A model generated the notes under the pieces. The model was given only the letters and a program-made list of their open reading frames with translations. It was not told the origin of the DNA and searched no databases. 64,000 bases of DNA from Aurantiacibacter arachoides (GTDB lineage: Bacteria; Pseudomonadota; Alphaproteobacteria; Sphingomonadales; Sphingomonadaceae): assembly GCF_009827335.1 (NCBI RefSeq), contig NZ_WTYH01000001.1, positions 558,001 through 622,000 of the forward strand. The letters run 5' to 3'. Positions 10,346-15,707 of this stretch are shown in pieces. The position numbers were made by a program, and so were the translations under genes. Each line of letters starts with the position of its first letter. The stretch's first letter is position 1.

Positions 10346-10740
10346 CCGACCTTTCGGGCCAGTGGGACGGCACCTTTTCCTATCCCGCCGGCTTCGGCCC
10401 CGTTACGCCGTTCCTGGCCATGCCGACCCAGCGCGGCGCCAGCCTTGCGGGCCGCATTATCGAACCCAGCCTGTACGGTGGTGCCTCGGCAGAGGCGGCA
10501 GTGCTTGGCGTGGTGGCGGGGGAGGCGGTGGACTTTACCAAGACCTACGCCCGCGCCGGTTTCGGTTACGAGAACCCGGTCGATTACGTCGGGCGGGTGA
10601 CCGACGACGGCAATCGCATCACCGGCGTGTGGAGCCTGCGCGATATGAACGGCAGCTTCGAGATGATCCACCATGCCGCCCGCGAGGAGGCGGAAGAACG
10701 CGAGGCGGCCGAAGAGCTGACGCTCAGCGTGCGTAGTTGA
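10342..10740 (+). CDS. Conserved-looking protein of unknown function downstream of crtZ
   Basis: About 132 residues from LTDLSGQWDGTFSYPAGFGP onward. No ATG, GTG or TTG lies in frame near the natural beginning; the best candidate is a CTG at 10342 overlapping the crtZ stop, otherwise an ATG at 10420 that would remove the first 26 residues. The sequence looks like a compact beta-rich protein (W-D-G-T-F, G-R-V-T-D-D-G-N-R-I-T-G-V-W), ending in an acidic Glu-rich tail. Its end overlaps the end of the converging Pmp3-like gene by 17 bases. Function unknown. Confidence 0.6.
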   Translation: MTDLSGQWDGTFSYPAGFGPVTPFLAMPTQRGASLAGRIIEPSLYGGASAEAAVLGVVAGEAVDFTKTYARAGFGYENPVDYVGRVTDDGNRITGVWSLRDMNGSFEMIHHAAREEAEEREAAEELTLSVRS

Positions 10741-10882
10741 CGTACAGGGCGTGGATCAGGCCCGGCACGTAGAAGATCAGCGTCAGCACCAGGTTGATGA
10801 GTGCGGTCTTGCCGACACCATGCTTCAACGCCACGCCCAGCGGCGGAACGATGATCGTGAGGATGAGGGTGATGATGGCCAT
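10724..10882 (-). CDS. Pmp3/YqaE family small membrane proteolipid
   Basis: 52 residues from MAIITLILTIIVPPLGVALK to the end, with two hydrophobic segments (about 3-19 and 27-46) and the family features PPLGVAL and the G-x-G-K turn region. Pmp3/YqaE proteins are stress-induced, membrane-potential-related proteolipids. The longer upstream reading frame lacks family similarity. Lies 74 bases downstream of sufE at the end of the leftward psp-sufE run, possibly with its own promoter. Confidence 0.9.
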   Translation of the reverse strand: MAIITLILTIIVPPLGVALKHGVGKTALINLVLTLIFYVPGLIHALYVNYAR

Positions 10883-10956
10883 TGTTGCGTTTGTCCCTGA
10901 TTGCCGTGCGACCCGGCGTTGCACACCCAACGACCCGTTCGCAGCCCTGGTTCCGA

Positions 10957-11379
10957 TCAACCGGCGGCGATGCGCGCGGCGTGTTCGCGCACCAGGGCAA
11001 TCATGTTGGGCACGCCCTGCGTGCGGTTGGAGCTGAGCTGGTTCCTGAGGTCGAACGGGGCGAGGCGTTCCGCCACGTCCATTGCCGCCACTTCACTGGC
11101 TGGGCGGTCCTGCACGGCGGCGATCACCAGCGCGACTATCCCCTTGGTGATGGCGGCGTTGCTGTCGGCAAGGAAGTGCAGCCTGGCCCCCTCCTCGCCG
11201 GTTTGCGATACGGTGGGATAGACCCACACCTGCGCGCTGCATCCGCGCACCAGCGTGGCGTCCGTCTTGAGCACGGCGGGCATGGGCTCCAGGTCGCGTC
11301 CCAGCTCGATCAGCAGGCGATAGCGTTCGTCGGCATCGAGAAAATCGTATTCTTCGTGAATGTCTTCGAGAGTGCGCAT
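10957..11379 (-). CDS. sufE: Cysteine desulfuration protein SufE
   Basis: 140 residues. SufE accepts persulfide sulfur from SufS for Fe-S cluster assembly. The catalytic cysteine is Cys47 in LVRGCSAQVWV, followed by the family pattern ADSNAAITKGIVALVIAA and LSSNRTQGVPNMIALVREHA at the C-terminus. It begins 24 bases after the last PspB-like gene, on the same strand, so read-through from the psp promoter is possible. The suf operon itself is not in the window. Confidence 0.93.
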   Translation of the reverse strand: MRTLEDIHEEYDFLDADERYRLLIELGRDLEPMPAVLKTDATLVRGCSAQVWVYPTVSQTGEEGARLHFLADSNAAITKGIVALVIAAVQDRPASEVAAMDVAERLAPFDLRNQLSSNRTQGVPNMIALVREHAARIAAG

Positions 11380-11403
11380 CGCCGCGCCCCTATCAAGACC
11401 CGC

Positions 11404-11640
11404 CTACAAGTCCACCCCGCTGGCGATCGCTTCCAGCTTGCGGATGCGTTCCTTGAGGTCGGCGATCTCGATGCGGGCCATGCCCTCGGCCGAGCCGCGT
11501 TCCATCGCCGGCGGCGGGCTGCGCAGTTCCAGTTCGCGGTTCTTCAGCGCCAGCCAGCCCTGCCAGCCCAGCAGCGCCGCGCCTGCCATGATGGCGAGCG
11601 CCAGCAGGGTGGTCGCGGCGTAAAGCATGTCGATCTCCAT
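11404..11640 (-). CDS. PspB-like one-helix/coiled-coil protein, copy 5
   Basis: 78 residues. One hydrophobic segment (about residues 6-27), then a coil ending in IADLKERIRKLEAIASGVDL. This is the shortest of five tandem paralogous proteins; its terminal motif aligns with the R-x-x-x-LE-x-I core of the others but lacks the following T-D and E-I-E-A-L-R. A strong AAGGAGG lies six bases before the ATG at 11640, which decides the start over an ATG two codons upstream that directly abuts it. Function inferred only from psp operon context. Confidence 0.75.
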   Translation of the reverse strand: MEIDMLYAATTLLALAIMAGAALLGWQGWLALKNRELELRSPPPAMERGSAEGMARIEIADLKERIRKLEAIASGVDL

Positions 11641-11651
11641 CGTCATCCTCC

Positions 11652-11906
11652 TTACTTGTCTCTCAAGGCCTCGATCTCCTCGGCGGTGCGCCGGGCGGGA
11701 TCGGTGGCAATGCGTTCGAGCACCTTGACCCGTTCGCGCAGGTCGGCGAGCTCGGCCCTGGCCTCGTCGCGTTCTTCGCGCAGGCGATCCTGGCCATCCT
11801 CCGGGTTGCCGCGCAGACGGTCCTTGCGGTTTTCGGCGAACTGCATGGCCAACACGGTCAGCGCGAGGACCATGACGATAAGCACCATGGCGGCGGCAAA
11901 GTTCAT
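11652..11906 (-). CDS. PspB-like one-helix/coiled-coil protein, copy 4
   Basis: 84 residues: hydrophobic N-terminal segment (about 4-22), a highly charged linker, and a coil with LRERVKVLERIATDPARRTA then EEIEALRD at about residues 56-83. The L-E-R-I core resembles the C-terminal coil of classical PspB (R-I-x-x-L-E-x-I-L-D). It overlaps the preceding copy by four bases (ATGA), implying coupled translation. Membrane-anchored with the coil probably cytoplasmic (inference). Confidence 0.78.
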   Translation of the reverse strand: MNFAAAMVLIVMVLALTVLAMQFAENRKDRLRGNPEDGQDRLREERDEARAELADLRERVKVLERIATDPARRTAEEIEALRDK

Positions 11907-12190
11907 CGGGCGGACCTCGTTTCAGCGCGCAGCGCCTCGATCTGGCGCGAGATGTCCATGCCCGGATCGGTCACGATACGCTCCAGCACGCGCAGCCGGT
12001 CTTCCAGGTGTGCCTGCACCTCGTTCGGTGCCACGGCCTGCGTGGCCTTGGCCTCCTCTATGCGCGCCTGGATCTCCAGCTTGCGCTCCTTGTGCTCCTG
12101 CTCGCGCTTGTTGATGAAATAGCCGAACGGAAAGACGATCAGGATCATCGCCAGCACGAAGCCGAAGACCAGCAGCATATCGGGGTTCAT
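11903..12190 (-). CDS. PspB-like one-helix/coiled-coil protein, copy 3
   Basis: 95 residues. Hydrophobic segment at about 5-24 (MLLVFGFVLAMILIVFPFGY), a K/E-rich helical stretch at 28-50, then HLEDRLRVLERIVTDPGMDI and RQIEALRAE at about 61-90. The motif is nearly identical to copy 1. Its ATG overlaps the stop of copy 2. No enzymatic residues are seen; a scaffold or sensor role at the inner membrane is the simplest inference. Confidence 0.8.
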   Translation of the reverse strand: MNPDMLLVFGFVLAMILIVFPFGYFINKREQEHKERKLEIQARIEEAKATQAVAPNEVQAHLEDRLRVLERIVTDPGMDISRQIEALRAETRSAR

Positions 12191-12504
12191 CAGTTGCTCT
12201 CCCGGTGGCCGCGCAGGCTCTCGATCTCGTGTGTCAGGTGATAGCCGCTGTCGGTGACGATGCGCTCCACATTGGCCACGCGGTCCTTGATCGAACCGAG
12301 CTCGGCGCGCAGCTGGGCGTTTTCCTGCGTCAGCAGCTTGACCCGTTCCTCGCTTTCGGAGCCCTTGGGATAGACGGCCTTGCCCCAGCTGTTCTCCAGC
12401 GGATAACCGTGGCGCACCCGAATGAAGGTATTGATGACCCAGGCGACCGACATGGCGACGACGCCGATGCCGATCACTTCGGGGGTGAGGATGGCGGGGT
12501 CCAT
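12190..12504 (-). CDS. PspB-like one-helix/coiled-coil protein, copy 2
   Basis: 104 residues. Hydrophobic segment at about 9-28, a linker with RHGYPLENSWGKAVYPKG, then a long coil SEERVKLLTQENAQLRAELG leading into KDRVANVERIVTDSGYHL and HEIESLRGH (about 52-100). Compared with its neighbours it has an extra heptad region before the shared motif. Start and stop both overlap with adjacent copies, consistent with one polycistronic message. Confidence 0.8.
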   Translation of the reverse strand: MDPAILTPEVIGIGVVAMSVAWVINTFIRVRHGYPLENSWGKAVYPKGSESEERVKLLTQENAQLRAELGSIKDRVANVERIVTDSGYHLTHEIESLRGHRESN

Positions 12505-12824
12505 CAGGCTTTCTCCTTCTTCGCGAAGTCCATTTTCACGCCTGAACCGTCCGTCATCGCGCGCTCGTCCTCGCGCCGCTGGTCACGCAATGCCTCGATC
12601 TGGGCGGCCAGGTCATAGCCGCGGTCGGTGACGATCCGTTCCAGCACCCGGACGCGGTCCTCCAGGTCGGCGACACGCGCCTTTTCAGCCGAGGTATCGG
12701 GGGCGGGGGAGGCAGCGCGGCGATCTTCCATCGCCAGACGCTTCTCCTCCAGCTTGCGCCGGTTGGTGGTGATCACGATCACGATGATCATGATGATGCC
12801 AAGGATCGGAATGAGCTCTTCCAT
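12504..12824 (-). CDS. PspB-like one-helix/coiled-coil protein, copy 1
   Basis: 106 residues. Hydrophobic segment ELIPILGIIMIIVIVITT at about 3-20, a basic stop-transfer, a low-complexity Ala/Pro linker, and the shared coil DLEDRVRVLERIVTDRGYDL then AQIEALRD (about 53-81). Starts 33 bases after the pspC stop. Topology and the V-L-E-R-I-V-T-D motif relate it to the genuine PspB at 13241-13537 (D-T-V-E-R-L-V-A-S-D), so the five copies are best viewed as an expanded PspB-like family. Confidence 0.8.
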   Translation of the reverse strand: MEELIPILGIIMIIVIVITTNRRKLEEKRLAMEDRRAASPAPDTSAEKARVADLEDRVRVLERIVTDRGYDLAAQIEALRDQRREDERAMTDGSGVKMDFAKKEKA

Positions 12825-12857
12825 GTCGTCTTTAACTCCCTGTCGTCGGCGGGCGGA

Positions 12858-13244
12858 TCAGCGCAGGCGCTCGATCTCGGCGTTGAGGCGCGGGTTGGAG
12901 CTGACGTAGAAGCTCTCCACGCTCGCCAGCCGGCGATCCACGTCCTTCATCTTGGCACGGATTTCGCGAGCGGTGCGCTTGGGGTTCTGGCGCACGCCCT
13001 GCCAATAGGCGGTTTCCTTTGGATCGGCGCTGTACATGTGCGCCGGCTTCTTGTTCAGCAGCAGGCCCATCAGGATGTAGAGCGGCAGGGCGATGACGCC
13101 CAAGACGCCGGTCAGGATGGACACGATCAGGCCAAGGCGGATCCAGAAGACGTTGACCCCGGTATAGTCGGCGATGCCGGAGCACACGCCCATGATCTTG
13201 CCGTTCTGCTTGTCGCGATAAAGCTGGGTACGGGGACTGTTCAC
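12858..13244 (-). CDS. pspC: Phage shock protein C
   Basis: 128 residues. N-terminal NGKIMGVCSGIADYTGVNVF is the PspC-domain signature, followed by hydrophobic segments at about 32-62, then a cytoplasmic tail with EIRAKMKDVDRRLASVESFY that may form a coil like those of the downstream genes. In enterobacteria PspB and PspC sense envelope stress and sequester PspA away from PspF. The start overlaps the pspB stop (ATGA). Confidence 0.93.
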   Translation of the reverse strand: MNSPRTQLYRDKQNGKIMGVCSGIADYTGVNVFWIRLGLIVSILTGVLGVIALPLYILMGLLLNKKPAHMYSADPKETAYWQGVRQNPKRTAREIRAKMKDVDRRLASVESFYVSSNPRLNAEIERLR

Positions 13245-13537
13245 GGGCGTTCTCCCTTCTTTTCGGCGAGCATCATTTCCAGCTCGCGCAGTGGCTGATT
13301 GTCGCTTTCCCTGTCGTGCTGCAGGCGGGGCGGGACGAAATCGGCATTGTCGCTGGCGACCAGCCGCTCGACCGTGTCCATCCGCTCGTCCAGCCGCTTG
13401 GCGAGGCTGTAGAGGTCTTCCAGCAGCGCCTCGTCATCGGTGGTGATGGTGGCCGAGGTCTTCCACTTGGTCACGTAGTGCAGCACGATCCACGGCAGCG
13501 CGATGAAGATACAGATGACGGCAAAGACTTCTTCCAC
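13241..13537 (-). CDS. pspB: Phage shock protein B
   Basis: 98 residues beginning at a GTG preceded by GGGGG. Hydrophobic segment at about 3-20, then YVTKWKTS and a coil DLYSLAKRLDERMDTVERLV at about 42-61, matching the family layout; a C-terminal extension of about 30 residues is longer than E. coli PspB (74 aa). Acts with PspC in the inner membrane to relieve PspA inhibition of PspF. Two bases separate it from the pspA stop. Confidence 0.88.
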   Translation of the reverse strand: MEEVFAVICIFIALPWIVLHYVTKWKTSATITTDDEALLEDLYSLAKRLDERMDTVERLVASDNADFVPPRLQHDRESDNQPLRELEMMLAEKKGERP

Positions 13538-13539
13538 GG

Positions 13540-14235
13540 TTATTCCCCCTTCGTGTTCTTGGCGTCATCGCGGGTCATCCCCAGCGCACGCTTCATCTGT
13601 TCGAGCTCGTCCTCGACCTTGTCGTTGCCTTCGAGCGCGGCGAACTGGTCGGCCAGGCTTTCCGTGTTGCCGGAAATGCCCAGCGCATCGGCGCGGCCCT
13701 CGGCATAGTCGACGCGGCGTTCGAGCTGGTCGAAGCGGGTCAGCGCCTCGTCCACCCGCTCGTTGGTCATCAGGCTGCGCAGCTTCACGCGGTTCTCCGC
13801 GCTTTCCAGCCGGGCAGCGATCTGGCTCTGGCGGCTGCGGGCCTCGCGCAGGCGGTGCTGCAGCTTGGCGATATCCTGCTCGTAGGCGCGCAGCGCATCG
13901 TCGAGCACGGCGATCTCCTGCTTGAGCTGATCGATCATGTCGGTCGCCTTGCGCTTTTCCACCAGCGCGGCACGGGCCAGATCCTCGCGATCCTTGGAAA
14001 GCGCCAGCTGCGCCTTGTCGCCCCAGTCCGCCTGCAACCGATCGAGCTTCACCGTATGGCGATGCATCTCCTTCTGGTCGGCAATGGTGCGCGCGGCGCT
14101 GGCGCGCACCTCCACCAGGGTTTCCTCCATCTCGAGGATGATCATGCGGATCATCTTCGACGGATCGTCGGCCTGATCGAGCAATTCGTTGAAATTGGCG
14201 GCGATGATGTCTCGGGTACGCGAGAAAATGCCCAT
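13540..14235 (-). CDS. pspA: Phage shock protein A
   Basis: 231 residues from MGIFSRTRDIIAANFNELLD, the canonical PspA/IM30 start with its membrane-binding amphipathic helix. A long coiled-coil body follows (DDPSKMIRMIILEMEETLVE, then AALVEKRKATDMIDQLKQE). PspA binds and inhibits PspF and, when stressed, oligomerises on the membrane to limit proton leakage. A strong GGAGGT lies just before this ATG. The frame is open for 46 more codons to 14373, where an ATG overlaps the previous stop, so a longer isoform is possible (see separate entry). Confidence 0.95.
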   Translation of the reverse strand: MGIFSRTRDIIAANFNELLDQADDPSKMIRMIILEMEETLVEVRASAARTIADQKEMHRHTVKLDRLQADWGDKAQLALSKDREDLARAALVEKRKATDMIDQLKQEIAVLDDALRAYEQDIAKLQHRLREARSRQSQIAARLESAENRVKLRSLMTNERVDEALTRFDQLERRVDYAEGRADALGISGNTESLADQFAALEGNDKVEDELEQMKRALGMTRDDAKNTKGE

Positions 14236-14373
14236 CCAGTTACCTCCGGAATATATGGCACGCGAGGTCGGCGTGGGGCTGGTGCGCAGGCGTTCGATCT
14301 CCTGATCGAGACGTGATGTCGCGCGGGCCAGGCCCTTGCCGATCGGCGTCAGGGGGTTGCGATCGTCGCTCAT
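14236..14373 (-). other. In-frame 46-codon extension upstream of pspA
   Basis: The reading frame MSDDRNPLTPIGKGLARATS continues without a stop into pspA. Its ATG overlaps the stop of the upstream small gene (ATGA), suggesting coupled initiation, while a second, strong ribosome site sits at the canonical pspA ATG (14235). It could be an N-terminal extension, producing two PspA forms, or only a spacer. The segment is basic and contains RLDQEIERLR, which may form a short helix. Confidence 0.5.
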
Positions 14374-14525
14374 GCCAGCTCCACCAGCGGGCTGATGGTC
14401 AGCAGCGAGTGCGCCGAAGCGACCTCGTGCTGCATCTGCGCGAATACGGTGAACGCGATCATCGCGGCAACGCTGACCAGCGCGGCGTGTCCCACCTTGC
14501 TGGAAAAGAAGCTGTGATCGAACAT
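14370..14525 (-). CDS. Small membrane protein, first gene of the psp operon
   Basis: 51 residues, MFDHSFFSSKVGHAALVSVA at the start, with one hydrophobic segment at about 12-30 and a less polar C-terminus. AGGAGG lies eight bases before the ATG at 14525, which decides the start over the longer open frame. It follows the sigma-54 promoter (14560-14575) with a short leader of roughly 20-25 bases and overlaps the start of the extended pspA frame. No known family; an envelope-stress role is inferred from position. Confidence 0.75.
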   Translation of the reverse strand: MFDHSFFSSKVGHAALVSVAAMIAFTVFAQMQHEVASAHSLLTISPLVELA

Positions 14526-14559
14526 TGTGTTTCCTCCTGAACCTTTCTCACCGATGAAT

Positions 14560-14575
14560 TGCAACCACCGTGCCA
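14560..14575 (-). promoter_or_regulatory. Sigma-54 (RpoN) promoter of the psp operon
   Basis: On the minus strand the site reads TGGCACGGTGGTTGCA, an exact match to the -24/-12 consensus TGGCACG-N4-TTGCA. It would drive the small membrane protein, pspA, pspB, pspC and the PspB-like array. The divergently encoded PspF (14676) is the expected activator. Confidence 0.92.
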
Positions 14576-14584
14576 AACGGTGCG

Positions 14585-14604
14585 ATTGGCGGAAATCCGC
14601 CAAT
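14585..14604 (-). promoter_or_regulatory. Putative PspF binding palindrome
   Basis: Perfect 9-bp inverted repeat with a 2-bp centre, ATTGGCGGAAATCCGCCAAT, ending 9 bp upstream of the -24 element of the psp promoter. A matching imperfect copy at 1369-1388 is at the same distance from another sigma-54 promoter. The location between pspF and the operon, and the repeat in the second locus, make PspF the likely ligand; its centre near -45 is closer than the enhancer sites known in E. coli. Confidence 0.7.
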
Positions 14605-14675
14605 ACCTGCGGCGAGTCGGCTTACCGCGATGGTGTCTATTGCCAACTCTCGGGAAAATTTCCTATGTCTTGGCG

Positions 14676-15707
14676 ATGAAGCAGCAAAACCAGTTCATCG
14701 GACAGTCCGGGGCCTTTCTCGATGCGGTGGAGCGCGCCAGCCGCGCAGCTACGCTTTCCCGCCCGGTCCTGGTCATCGGCGAACGGGGAACGGGCAAGGA
14801 ACTGATTGCCGAACGCCTGCATCGCCTGTCCGATCGCTGGGAAGAACCGCTCGTCACCATGAACTGCGCTGCGCTGCCGGAAACGCTGATCGAGGCCGAG
14901 CTGTTCGGCCATGAACAGGGCGCCTTTACCGGCGCTACCCGCGCCCGCGTCGGGCGGTTCGAGGAAGCCGACCGGGGTACCCTGTTTCTCGACGAACTGG
15001 GCACCCTGTCGATGGGCGCGCAGGAACGGCTGCTGCGCGCGGTGGAATACGGCGAGGTCACGCGGATCGGCTCCAGCCGGCCGCAACGGGTGGACGTGCG
15101 CATCGTCGCCGCCACGAACGAAGACCTGCCGCGCCGCGCCGAGGAAGGCACCTTCCGCCCCGACCTGCTCGACCGGCTGAGCTTCGAGGTCATCACTTTG
15201 CCGCCGCTGCGGGTGCGTGAAGGCGACATCGGTGTGCTGGCCGAACACTTCGGGCGGCGGATGGCGGCGGAACTGGGGTGGGAGGAATGGCCCGGCTTCG
15301 CCCAGCACGTGGGTGAGGCGATGGAGAACCATCCCTGGCCCGGCAACGTGCGCGAACTGCGCAACGTGGTCGAGCGGGCGATCTACCGCTGGGACAACTG
15401 GGAACAGCCGGTCAGCGAAATGGTGTTCGATCCGTTCGAAAGCCCATGGAAGCCACGTGGGTCGGTCGCGCCTGGACCCTCGGCCGCATCACCCCAGGCG
15501 ACGGCCCAGCCAGCGGCCACCTCCACCCGTTTCGACCAGGTCGACGACCTGCGCGCCGCGGTCGACGCGCACGAACGCGCCATCCTCGAACACGCGCTCG
15601 GCGCCAATCGCTGGAACCAGCGGCAGACGGCCCGGGCGCTGGGGCTCAGTTACGACCAGTTGCGCCACGCCATCAAGAAGCACGGCCTGATGGAGGATGG
15701 CGACTAG
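14676..15707 (+). CDS. pspF: Sigma-54 activator PspF
   Basis: 343-residue enhancer-binding protein with no N-terminal receiver domain, as in PspF: the AAA+ domain starts at once. Walker A GERGTGKE at about residue 33, the sigma-54-contacting GAFTGA loop in EQGAFTGATRARVGRF near residue 80, Walker B GTLFLDELG near 102, and WPGNVRELRN near 225. A Pro/Ala linker leads to a Fis-type helix-turn-helix (RWNQRQTARALGLSYDQLRH) near the C-terminus. Divergent from the psp operon it should activate; repressed by PspA binding in known systems. Confidence 0.95.
   Translation: MKQQNQFIGQSGAFLDAVERASRAATLSRPVLVIGERGTGKELIAERLHRLSDRWEEPLVTMNCAALPETLIEAELFGHEQGAFTGATRARVGRFEEADRGTLFLDELGTLSMGAQERLLRAVEYGEVTRIGSSRPQRVDVRIVAATNEDLPRRAEEGTFRPDLLDRLSFEVITLPPLRVREGDIGVLAEHFGRRMAAELGWEEWPGFAQHVGEAMENHPWPGNVRELRNVVERAIYRWDNWEQPVSEMVFDPFESPWKPRGSVAPGPSAASPQATAQPAATSTRFDQVDDLRAAVDAHERAILEHALGANRWNQRQTARALGLSYDQLRHAIKKHGLMEDGD

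Follow-up and report, generated by a model that had tools for sequence, protein, structure and literature searches.

Organization of the psp Locus

The stretch of DNA analyzed (the window) is a 64-kb segment of the Aurantiacibacter arachoides genome (positions 558,001 to 622,000 of contig NZ_WTYH01000001.1), and the element under study is an array of five small genes, here termed x1 to x5, within its psp operon. The operon lies on the minus strand in the order pspA, pspB, pspC, x1-x5, sufE, such that the array is flanked by pspC and sufE, and pspF is divergent on the plus strand. The first-pass annotation of this DNA had correctly placed the array in a psp operon but had put pspB three genes upstream, whereas it is two genes upstream of x1. 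The array genes are x1 (12504..12824; 106 amino acids), x2 (12190..12504; 104 amino acids), x3 (11903..12190; 95 amino acids), x4 (11652..11906; 84 amino acids), and x5 (11404..11646; 80 amino acids), all on the minus strand and assigned to subfamilies 1, 2, 3, 4, and 5, respectively. They are five consecutive open reading frames (ORFs), as had been proposed, but not all of them overlap: x1/x2 and x2/x3 share 1 nucleotide (nt) each and x3/x4 share 4 nt, whereas x4 and x5 are 5 nt apart. Overlaps of 1 or 4 nt were found at 77 of 127 x-x junctions in loci of the family (Sphingomonadaceae in the wide sense with Erythrobacteraceae, an inferred label), a count biased upward by our own gene finder, which set the starts and rewards such overlaps.

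A hydrophobic N-terminal stretch is present in each of x1-x5, in line with their description as one-helix proteins. The two-part motif said to be shared by all five stood for its first half only. The coil motif R-[VILMT]-x(1,2)-[LV]-E-[RKAS]-I-[VAL]-[TS]-[DG] was found in x1-x5 and in no other of the 575 window frames of at least 60 codons; like the R-L-x-x-E-I/V-E-x-L-R-type patterns used below, it was composed after the sequences had been read. The second, EIEALR-like half occurs in x1-x4, whose shared tails map to 12656-12585, 12282-12211, 11998-11927, and 11732-11661, respectively, and is missing from x5, which retains the coil half only and has the C terminus KLEAIASGVDL. Among relatives, the tail pattern follows the coil in 32 of 32 proteins of subfamily 1, 23 of 24 of subfamily g, 34 of 35 of subfamily 2, 38 of 38 of subfamily 3, and 46 of 50 of subfamily 4, but in 0 of 41 of subfamily 5; thus, tail loss in x5 is a subfamily trait. 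Linkers vary by subfamily, as had been claimed, x2 having a juxtamembrane GYPLE-WG-YPK linker.

Hydropathy analysis placed 209 of 222 x proteins above the helix threshold and revealed a second helix in none of them, and the content of Lys plus Arg was higher after the helix than before it in 219 of 222. The x proteins are therefore predicted to be single-pass inner-membrane proteins with the N terminus out and the C terminus in. The AlphaFold model of x1 has a helix (residues 4-38), a linker, and a long helix (44-92), with a mean predicted local distance difference test (pLDDT) score of 68; that of PspC has a helix at 88-116 and a short last helix at 118-127 (pLDDT 69). Searches of solved structures returned a single weak match with x, to a potassium channel (E 0.0047), and no match with PspC. 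Four records (P0001, P0002, P0005, and P0030) contain two tandem x units per protein, each being a single record that could reflect a real fusion or an assembly error; in P0001, P0002, and P0005, the aligner placed both unit kinds on one half.

Upstream of the array, pspC (12858..13244, minus strand; PF04024 64.8 bits, TIGR02978 132.1 bits) has its C-terminal tail at 12932-12861, and pspB (13241..13537, minus strand) scored 68.5 bits with PF06667 and 87.3 bits with TIGR02976. Where PspB from other families of the order finishes in a short P-x-W-R, this PspB instead carries the C-terminal extension PLRELEMMLAEKKG. The pspA gene (13540..14373, minus strand; PF04012 127.7 bits, TIGR02977 280.1 bits) has an N-terminal extension, and a second start at 14235 with a strong ribosome site yields the usual MGIFSR form. 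The stop of a small one-helix leader ORF (14370..14525, minus strand; 51 amino acids, C-terminal VELA) overlaps the long pspA start (ATGA). Downstream, sufE (10957..11379, minus strand; PF02657 112.1 bits) is the next same-strand gene after x5. The divergent activator gene pspF (14676..15707, plus strand; TIGR02974 467.3 bits) was given its start by eye at MKQQNQF, its ORF being listed from 14559.

A σ54 (-24/-12) promoter-like site, TGGCACGGTGGTTGCAA, is located upstream of the operon at 14559..14575 on the minus strand. It is the sole strict match to TGGCAC-N5-TTGC[AT] on both strands of the window, and a relaxed pattern adds only one at 1398 on the plus strand. Of the 46 family loci with a recognized pspA core start, 39 have a TGGCAC/CGGCAC-N5,6-TGC site in the 600 nt preceding pspA. 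A pattern scan of 10700-14800 revealed no σ70-like site, and four terminator-like sites were observed in the same region, compared with a shuffle mean of 3.1.

Distribution and Subfamilies of the x Genes

A sample of 197 genomes of the order was searched for PspA, and it was found in 192. From the matches listed, 75 psp loci were hand-picked for genus spread, which together with the window gave 50 loci inside the family and 26 outside it. All 50 family loci contain x genes, in 1-7 copies (3 or 4 copies in 34), so that the array is not peculiar to this operon; no array was found in the 26 others. Three family loci at first scored as zero-copy (L031, L038, and L039) were found to contain arrays by direct search, the zeros having arisen from a distance cut-off. 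When 20 family genomes were searched, 17 of them beyond the fetched loci, x matches were obtained in every one, with a best E of 1.2e-17 or lower in each. A SufE match lies downstream of the array in most listed family loci, and downstream in 14 of the 26 psp loci outside the family.

Profile grouping resolved six subfamilies, designated 1, g, 2, 3, 4, and 5; the window has the order 1-2-3-4-5, and x5 is present in 46 of 50 family loci. The order 1-g-2-3-4-5 is kept in 43 of 49 loci with at least two x genes; in 2000 shuffles it was kept in 2 loci on average and never in more than 7. In a further 80 named loci, a biased sample in that they were found with subfamily 1, the order is kept in 72; 76 are complete from pspA to sufE and have 2-8 x copies. 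A match to x1 at 81% was found in A. luteus. In L009, the x2 slot between subfamilies 1 and 3 holds a 47-amino acid membrane peptide without a tail.

The ratio of nonsynonymous to synonymous substitution rates (dN/dS) was calculated for six pairs of relatives. Values for x genes were 0.08-0.54 where computable (three were not), subfamily 3 often being the fastest evolving, and those for pspA, pspB, and pspC in the same pairs were 0.04-0.26. The x genes are under purifying selection. Neutral tandem duplication without function would accommodate the variation in copy number from 1 to 8, the loss of subfamilies in places, and the speed of subfamily 3, but it leaves unexplained that the six subfamilies are orthologous and keep their order, that dN/dS is below 1 in all pairs computed, and that all family genomes examined have x matches; we regard it as extremely improbable. 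Tail identity between subfamilies was 0.543 within genomes and 0.548 between genomes, and 229 of 300 label shuffles reached the observed value. Given that tails are no more alike within than between genomes, gene conversion is not what keeps them alike; together with the profile grouping and the conserved order of the subfamilies, these values led us to reject both gene conversion and recent duplication in place as the chief origin of the common motif. Some single duplications do look recent, for example two like C termini in L006.

Outside the family, three psp loci of one other family (L070, L072, and L073) have a second PspC-like gene after pspC and then a single x gene, for which the best-scoring group is subfamily 4; L075 has the second PspC-like gene also. 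L061, a locus from a different family of the order, has an additional PspB-like gene downstream of pspC, possibly an instance of the published PspB duplicates discussed below. A second sample, also of 26 genomes from outside the family and overlapping in part with the first, showed strong x matches (E <1e-12) at a distance from psp in 17; three of these have another such match next to psp, and strong matches were lacking in nine. In the 17 loci of the order with x away from psp, an rpoD homologue lies near six and a dnaG homologue near four (L218-L221, L205, and L206 being among these loci), neighbors that were counted by cluster, with one of each identified by Pfam; this proximity is attributed to a gene order that related genomes have in common.

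In 144 genomes sampled across the class (E 1e-4), the matches comprised three family members, including that of the window, and one judged false, this being L084 from another family of the class, an unrelated coil to judge from its 249-codon frame and surroundings. A phylum-wide draw (E 0.001) gave 39 matches in 249 genomes: 14 in the family, two in other class members with clear x genes, and a remainder that includes clear x genes in other classes (Gammaproteobacteria is an inferred label for these same-phylum matches), among which the weakest (about 22-25 bits, 77-94 codons) are probably PspB. Ten neighboring proteins, from six of 20 loci fetched in other classes, belong to varied families, three being without a match. 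Single x proteins from elsewhere in the order and from further classes of the phylum have the same anchor and coil and a tail mostly ending EIDxL-like; they differ from the array in occurring in one or few copies and, save for the three loci above, away from psp. The distribution is compatible with an ancestral state of one x gene, which may then have moved to the psp locus and expanded there.

Relationship of the x Proteins to PspB and PspC

None of x1-x5 scored above any Pfam or NCBIfam cut-off when the window proteins were searched. The best PspB-model scores were both obtained with x4, 14.0 bits with PF06667 (cut-off 25.6) and 13.4 bits with TIGR02976 (cut-off 51.7), which rules out x1-x5 as PspB by the curated models. 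The PspC domain PF04024 had no match in x1-x5. Weak matches to TIGR02978, far under its cut-off, reached model position 121 of 121 for x1-x3 and 120 of 121 for x4; x5 gave none. Scores of this kind might be expected if the resemblance to PspB and PspC were mere coiled-coil convergence and the array a separate one-helix family sited in the operon.

Profiles were compared using sequences from relatives: 179 x, 74 of 76 PspB-labeled, and 72 of 79 PspC-labeled. One protein at first labeled PspB (L019_8) was reassigned to x in later analyses. With the helix excluded, x matched the PspC tail with a probability of 93.7 and a score of 35.2 over 37 columns that run to the final residue of PspC. The controls reached at most 25.1 (25 heptad-block shuffles) and 13.3 (25 column shuffles), and the reversed profile scored 16.6. 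Full-length x matched PspB with a probability of 95.2 and a score of 43.6 over 66 columns that include the helix, a comparison made without a control; for the coil alone the probability was 72.7 and the score 26.1, barely higher than the best control (23.4). PspB and the PspC tail did not match each other (probability 1.5). Although heptad-block shuffles themselves attain 25.1, the score of 35.2, the run of the alignment up to the last PspC residue, the separate PspB match, and placement in the operon at 50 of 50 loci make convergence very unlikely.

Similar behavior was observed with individual proteins. Alignment A1 contained 47 of 54 non-redundant x proteins, seven being omitted. In single scans of 47 x proteins against all NCBIfam models (E 0.01), the commonest of the weak matches were PspC (20 of 47, best E 6.2e-5) and the PspB model TIGR02976 (14 of 47, best E 1.8e-5); PF06667 matched six of 47 at the same threshold (best E 0.00024). 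Within the window, x2 aligns with the C-terminal 35 residues of PspC at 37% identity; by eye, the x1 tail can be aligned gap-free with the C-terminal 24, giving eight identities. In a psp operon of another class (L118), the x profile weakly matches both PspB (E 2.3e-6) and PspC (E 7.2e-6). A similar tail is borne by one protein (L222:4785-5174, plus strand) that looks soluble and whose N-terminal part, with its C-x-x-C, is zinc-ribbon-like; it has no Pfam match, and the family genome from which it comes also bears the array.

Because the profiles resemble both PspB and PspC, while PspB and the PspC tail are mutually unmatched, x1-x4 are best described, from these comparisons, as anchors of the PspB type to which a tail of the PspC type is joined. 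For the shared tail, the PspC C terminus is a closer relative than PspB. The "PspB-like" of the first-pass annotation thus survives for the layout of one-helix anchor and coil, but not for the tail; the PspB comparison that it had suggested gave a high but uncontrolled value at full length and a marginal one for the coil. Like PspB, the x proteins have a predicted N-terminal membrane helix, a predicted cytosolic coil with an R-x-x-L/V-E motif, and a place in the same operon. Unlike PspB, x1-x4 have the extra tail V/A-T-D...EIExLR, and one true pspB stands alongside. They differ from PspC in lacking the PspC domain, a single helix replacing the PspC membrane domain.

An N-terminal Extension of PspA Resembles the PspC Tail

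The PspA extension (14373-14236, minus strand) contains R-L-D-Q-E-I-E-R-L-R-T-S-P-T-P, the R-L-D-Q-E-I-E-R-L-R part lying at 14313-14284. Such an upstream extension of the frame, with an S-R-L-D-x-E-I/V-E-R-L-R-x-S-P-T-P-like motif, is shared by 22 of 50 family loci. Several residues of the extension are invariant across these 22 loci despite having two to four codons, and a leader-like small ORF with an ATGA/GTGA overlap onto an in-frame pspA start was observed in the window and in 13 of 13 relatives examined, all of them picked from loci with the extension. For these two reasons the extension is probably translated. The usual pspA start also retains a ribosome site.

Of the 30 loci that have subfamily 1, 22 show the extension motif, compared with none of the 20 that lack this subfamily (Fisher p 1.3e-7, uncorrected for kinship); three of the eight subfamily-1 negatives (L010, L028, and L043) were unscorable and counted as lacking the motif, although a separate inspection of L043 did show it. 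The strict form, R[LIF]xxE[IVA]ExLR, was counted in 78 named loci: it was found in PspA in 67, PspC in 72, PspB in none, and in 0 of 6617 other frames; among x frames, it occurred in 40 of 80 of subfamily 4, six of 75 of subfamily 2, one of 41 of subfamily g, and none of subfamilies 1 (0 of 86), 3 (0 of 68), and 5 (0 of 77). A looser form was found in PspA in 67 of 78, PspC in 78 of 78, 278 of 350 tailed x frames (37 of 86, 31 of 41, 66 of 75, 66 of 68, and 78 of 80 for subfamilies 1, g, 2, 3, and 4, respectively), and eight of 6617 other frames. Shuffled extensions gave the strict form nine times in 1,340,000. On average, the extension and the PspC tail agree at 7 of 10 places (7.03 within genomes and 7.0 between genomes).

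These observations suggest, doubtfully, a scheme for Erythrobacteraceae in which the helix motif R-L-x-x-E-I/V-E-x-L-R occurs in the PspA extension, at the end of PspC, and in variant form at the ends of the array proteins. PspA would carry a copy of the docking tail itself, ahead of its membrane helix, and this would compete or pair with the 2-8 anchored copies, and the number and kind of free hooks would set recruitment. The absence of the strict form from subfamilies 1 and 3 weakens this reading of the motif as a shared plug. A homotypic helix might also account for a similar motif in the PspA extension, as would be the case if the x proteins were psp-induced effectors that stabilize the membrane or another complex themselves and used the tail for self-association. 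Effectors of this sort would be in keeping with the finding of x genes at a distance from psp, both in 17 of 26 genomes from elsewhere in the order and in further classes of the phylum. That explanation, which leaves the PspC-like tail and the placement between pspC and sufE unaccounted for, is considered unlikely.

Discussion

The occurrence of PspB duplicates within psp operons is already published: the available part of Ravi et al. (2024; PMC11237479) mentions them, together with a divergent C-terminal PspB fused to PspC, such that the statement of the first-pass annotation that known psp operons carry one PspB was too strict. The array resembles those cases in having more than one PspB-related gene in a pspFABC operon and a PspB-like region at the PspC C terminus. 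It differs from them in that the same part of that paper gives one example accession (AOL22920.1) and describes no subfamily set, tail, or PspA extension. Such an array is unmentioned in the available part of Popp et al. (2022; PMC9239133). Beyond Ravi et al., searches of open-licence PMC papers turned up nothing on such an array, neither its subfamilies and their order nor the PspC-type tail or the PspA extension.

We propose that x1-x4 are family-wide paralogous membrane anchors, with a PspB-type helix and coil and a PspC-type tail, that dock PspA, a reading whose chances we put at about even. In the available portion of an Escherichia coli study, the PspC leucine zipper (residues 69-119) is required for interaction with PspA (PMC3068692). 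The notion that x tails bind PspA is carried over from this link between zipper and PspA, and the literature for such binding, as far as it was available, deals with PspC only (PMC3068692, PMC5596341). The x proteins are probably made together with PspABC under PspF/σ54 control, and the x tail would be the counterpart of the PspC C-terminal part linked to PspA contact. The array would then most likely supply several different membrane hooks for PspA, or anchors that pair with the PspB and PspC coils and thereby adjust when PspA releases PspF. Subfamily-specific helices and linkers would select the partner or membrane site, the tail being common to them, and PspA could be held at the membrane at differing sites or strengths. 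The tail-less x5 would serve as a coil partner only. The modular scaffold suggested in the first-pass annotation is thus a fair reading, its PspA-docking part being conjectural.

Alternatively, the x proteins may be extra PspB-type partners of PspC, forming hetero-oligomers with PspB and PspC as a graded or multi-input switch, without contacting PspA. The PspB-like anchor and coil (full-length probability 95.2) and the variation of helix and linker among subfamilies are consistent with it, as is the interaction of PspB with PspC in E. coli reported in the available text of that study (PMC3068692). Given that the shared tail is of the PspC type and absent from PspB, we think this somewhat improbable.

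Several observations weigh against docking of PspA by an anchor of mixed PspB and PspC type. The x1-x5 scores fall below every curated cut-off, and the coil alone barely exceeds its control. Coils can inflate scores: in scans of genomes, values of E 6.6e-6 and 1.9e-5 were attained by matches whose frame length led us to judge them unrelated. The x1 and PspC structure models are of modest confidence. The x domain is not tied to PspA because single x genes elsewhere sit away from psp. The E. coli study, in the portion available, assigns residues 69-119 of PspC a periplasmic location or a second topology, and finds the isolated 69-119 piece active only with PspB (PMC3068692). No binding, expression, or phenotype data for x genes turned up.

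PspA is a bacterial ESCRT-III protein, the recruitment of which to damaged membrane via PspB and PspC is not settled. A family in which a presumed PspA-docking tail has been multiplied into as many as eight separately anchored proteins provides natural variants for testing parts of that tail, and the array subfamilies could help to tell graded from specialized anchors. An x profile search gave at least 7996 of 8000 candidates at E 0.001 or better; among the 120 matches listed, most are nameless or "hypothetical protein," and one UniRef name starts "Phage shock prot." The reading of the array proposed here would give a likely system to many such unnamed proteins.
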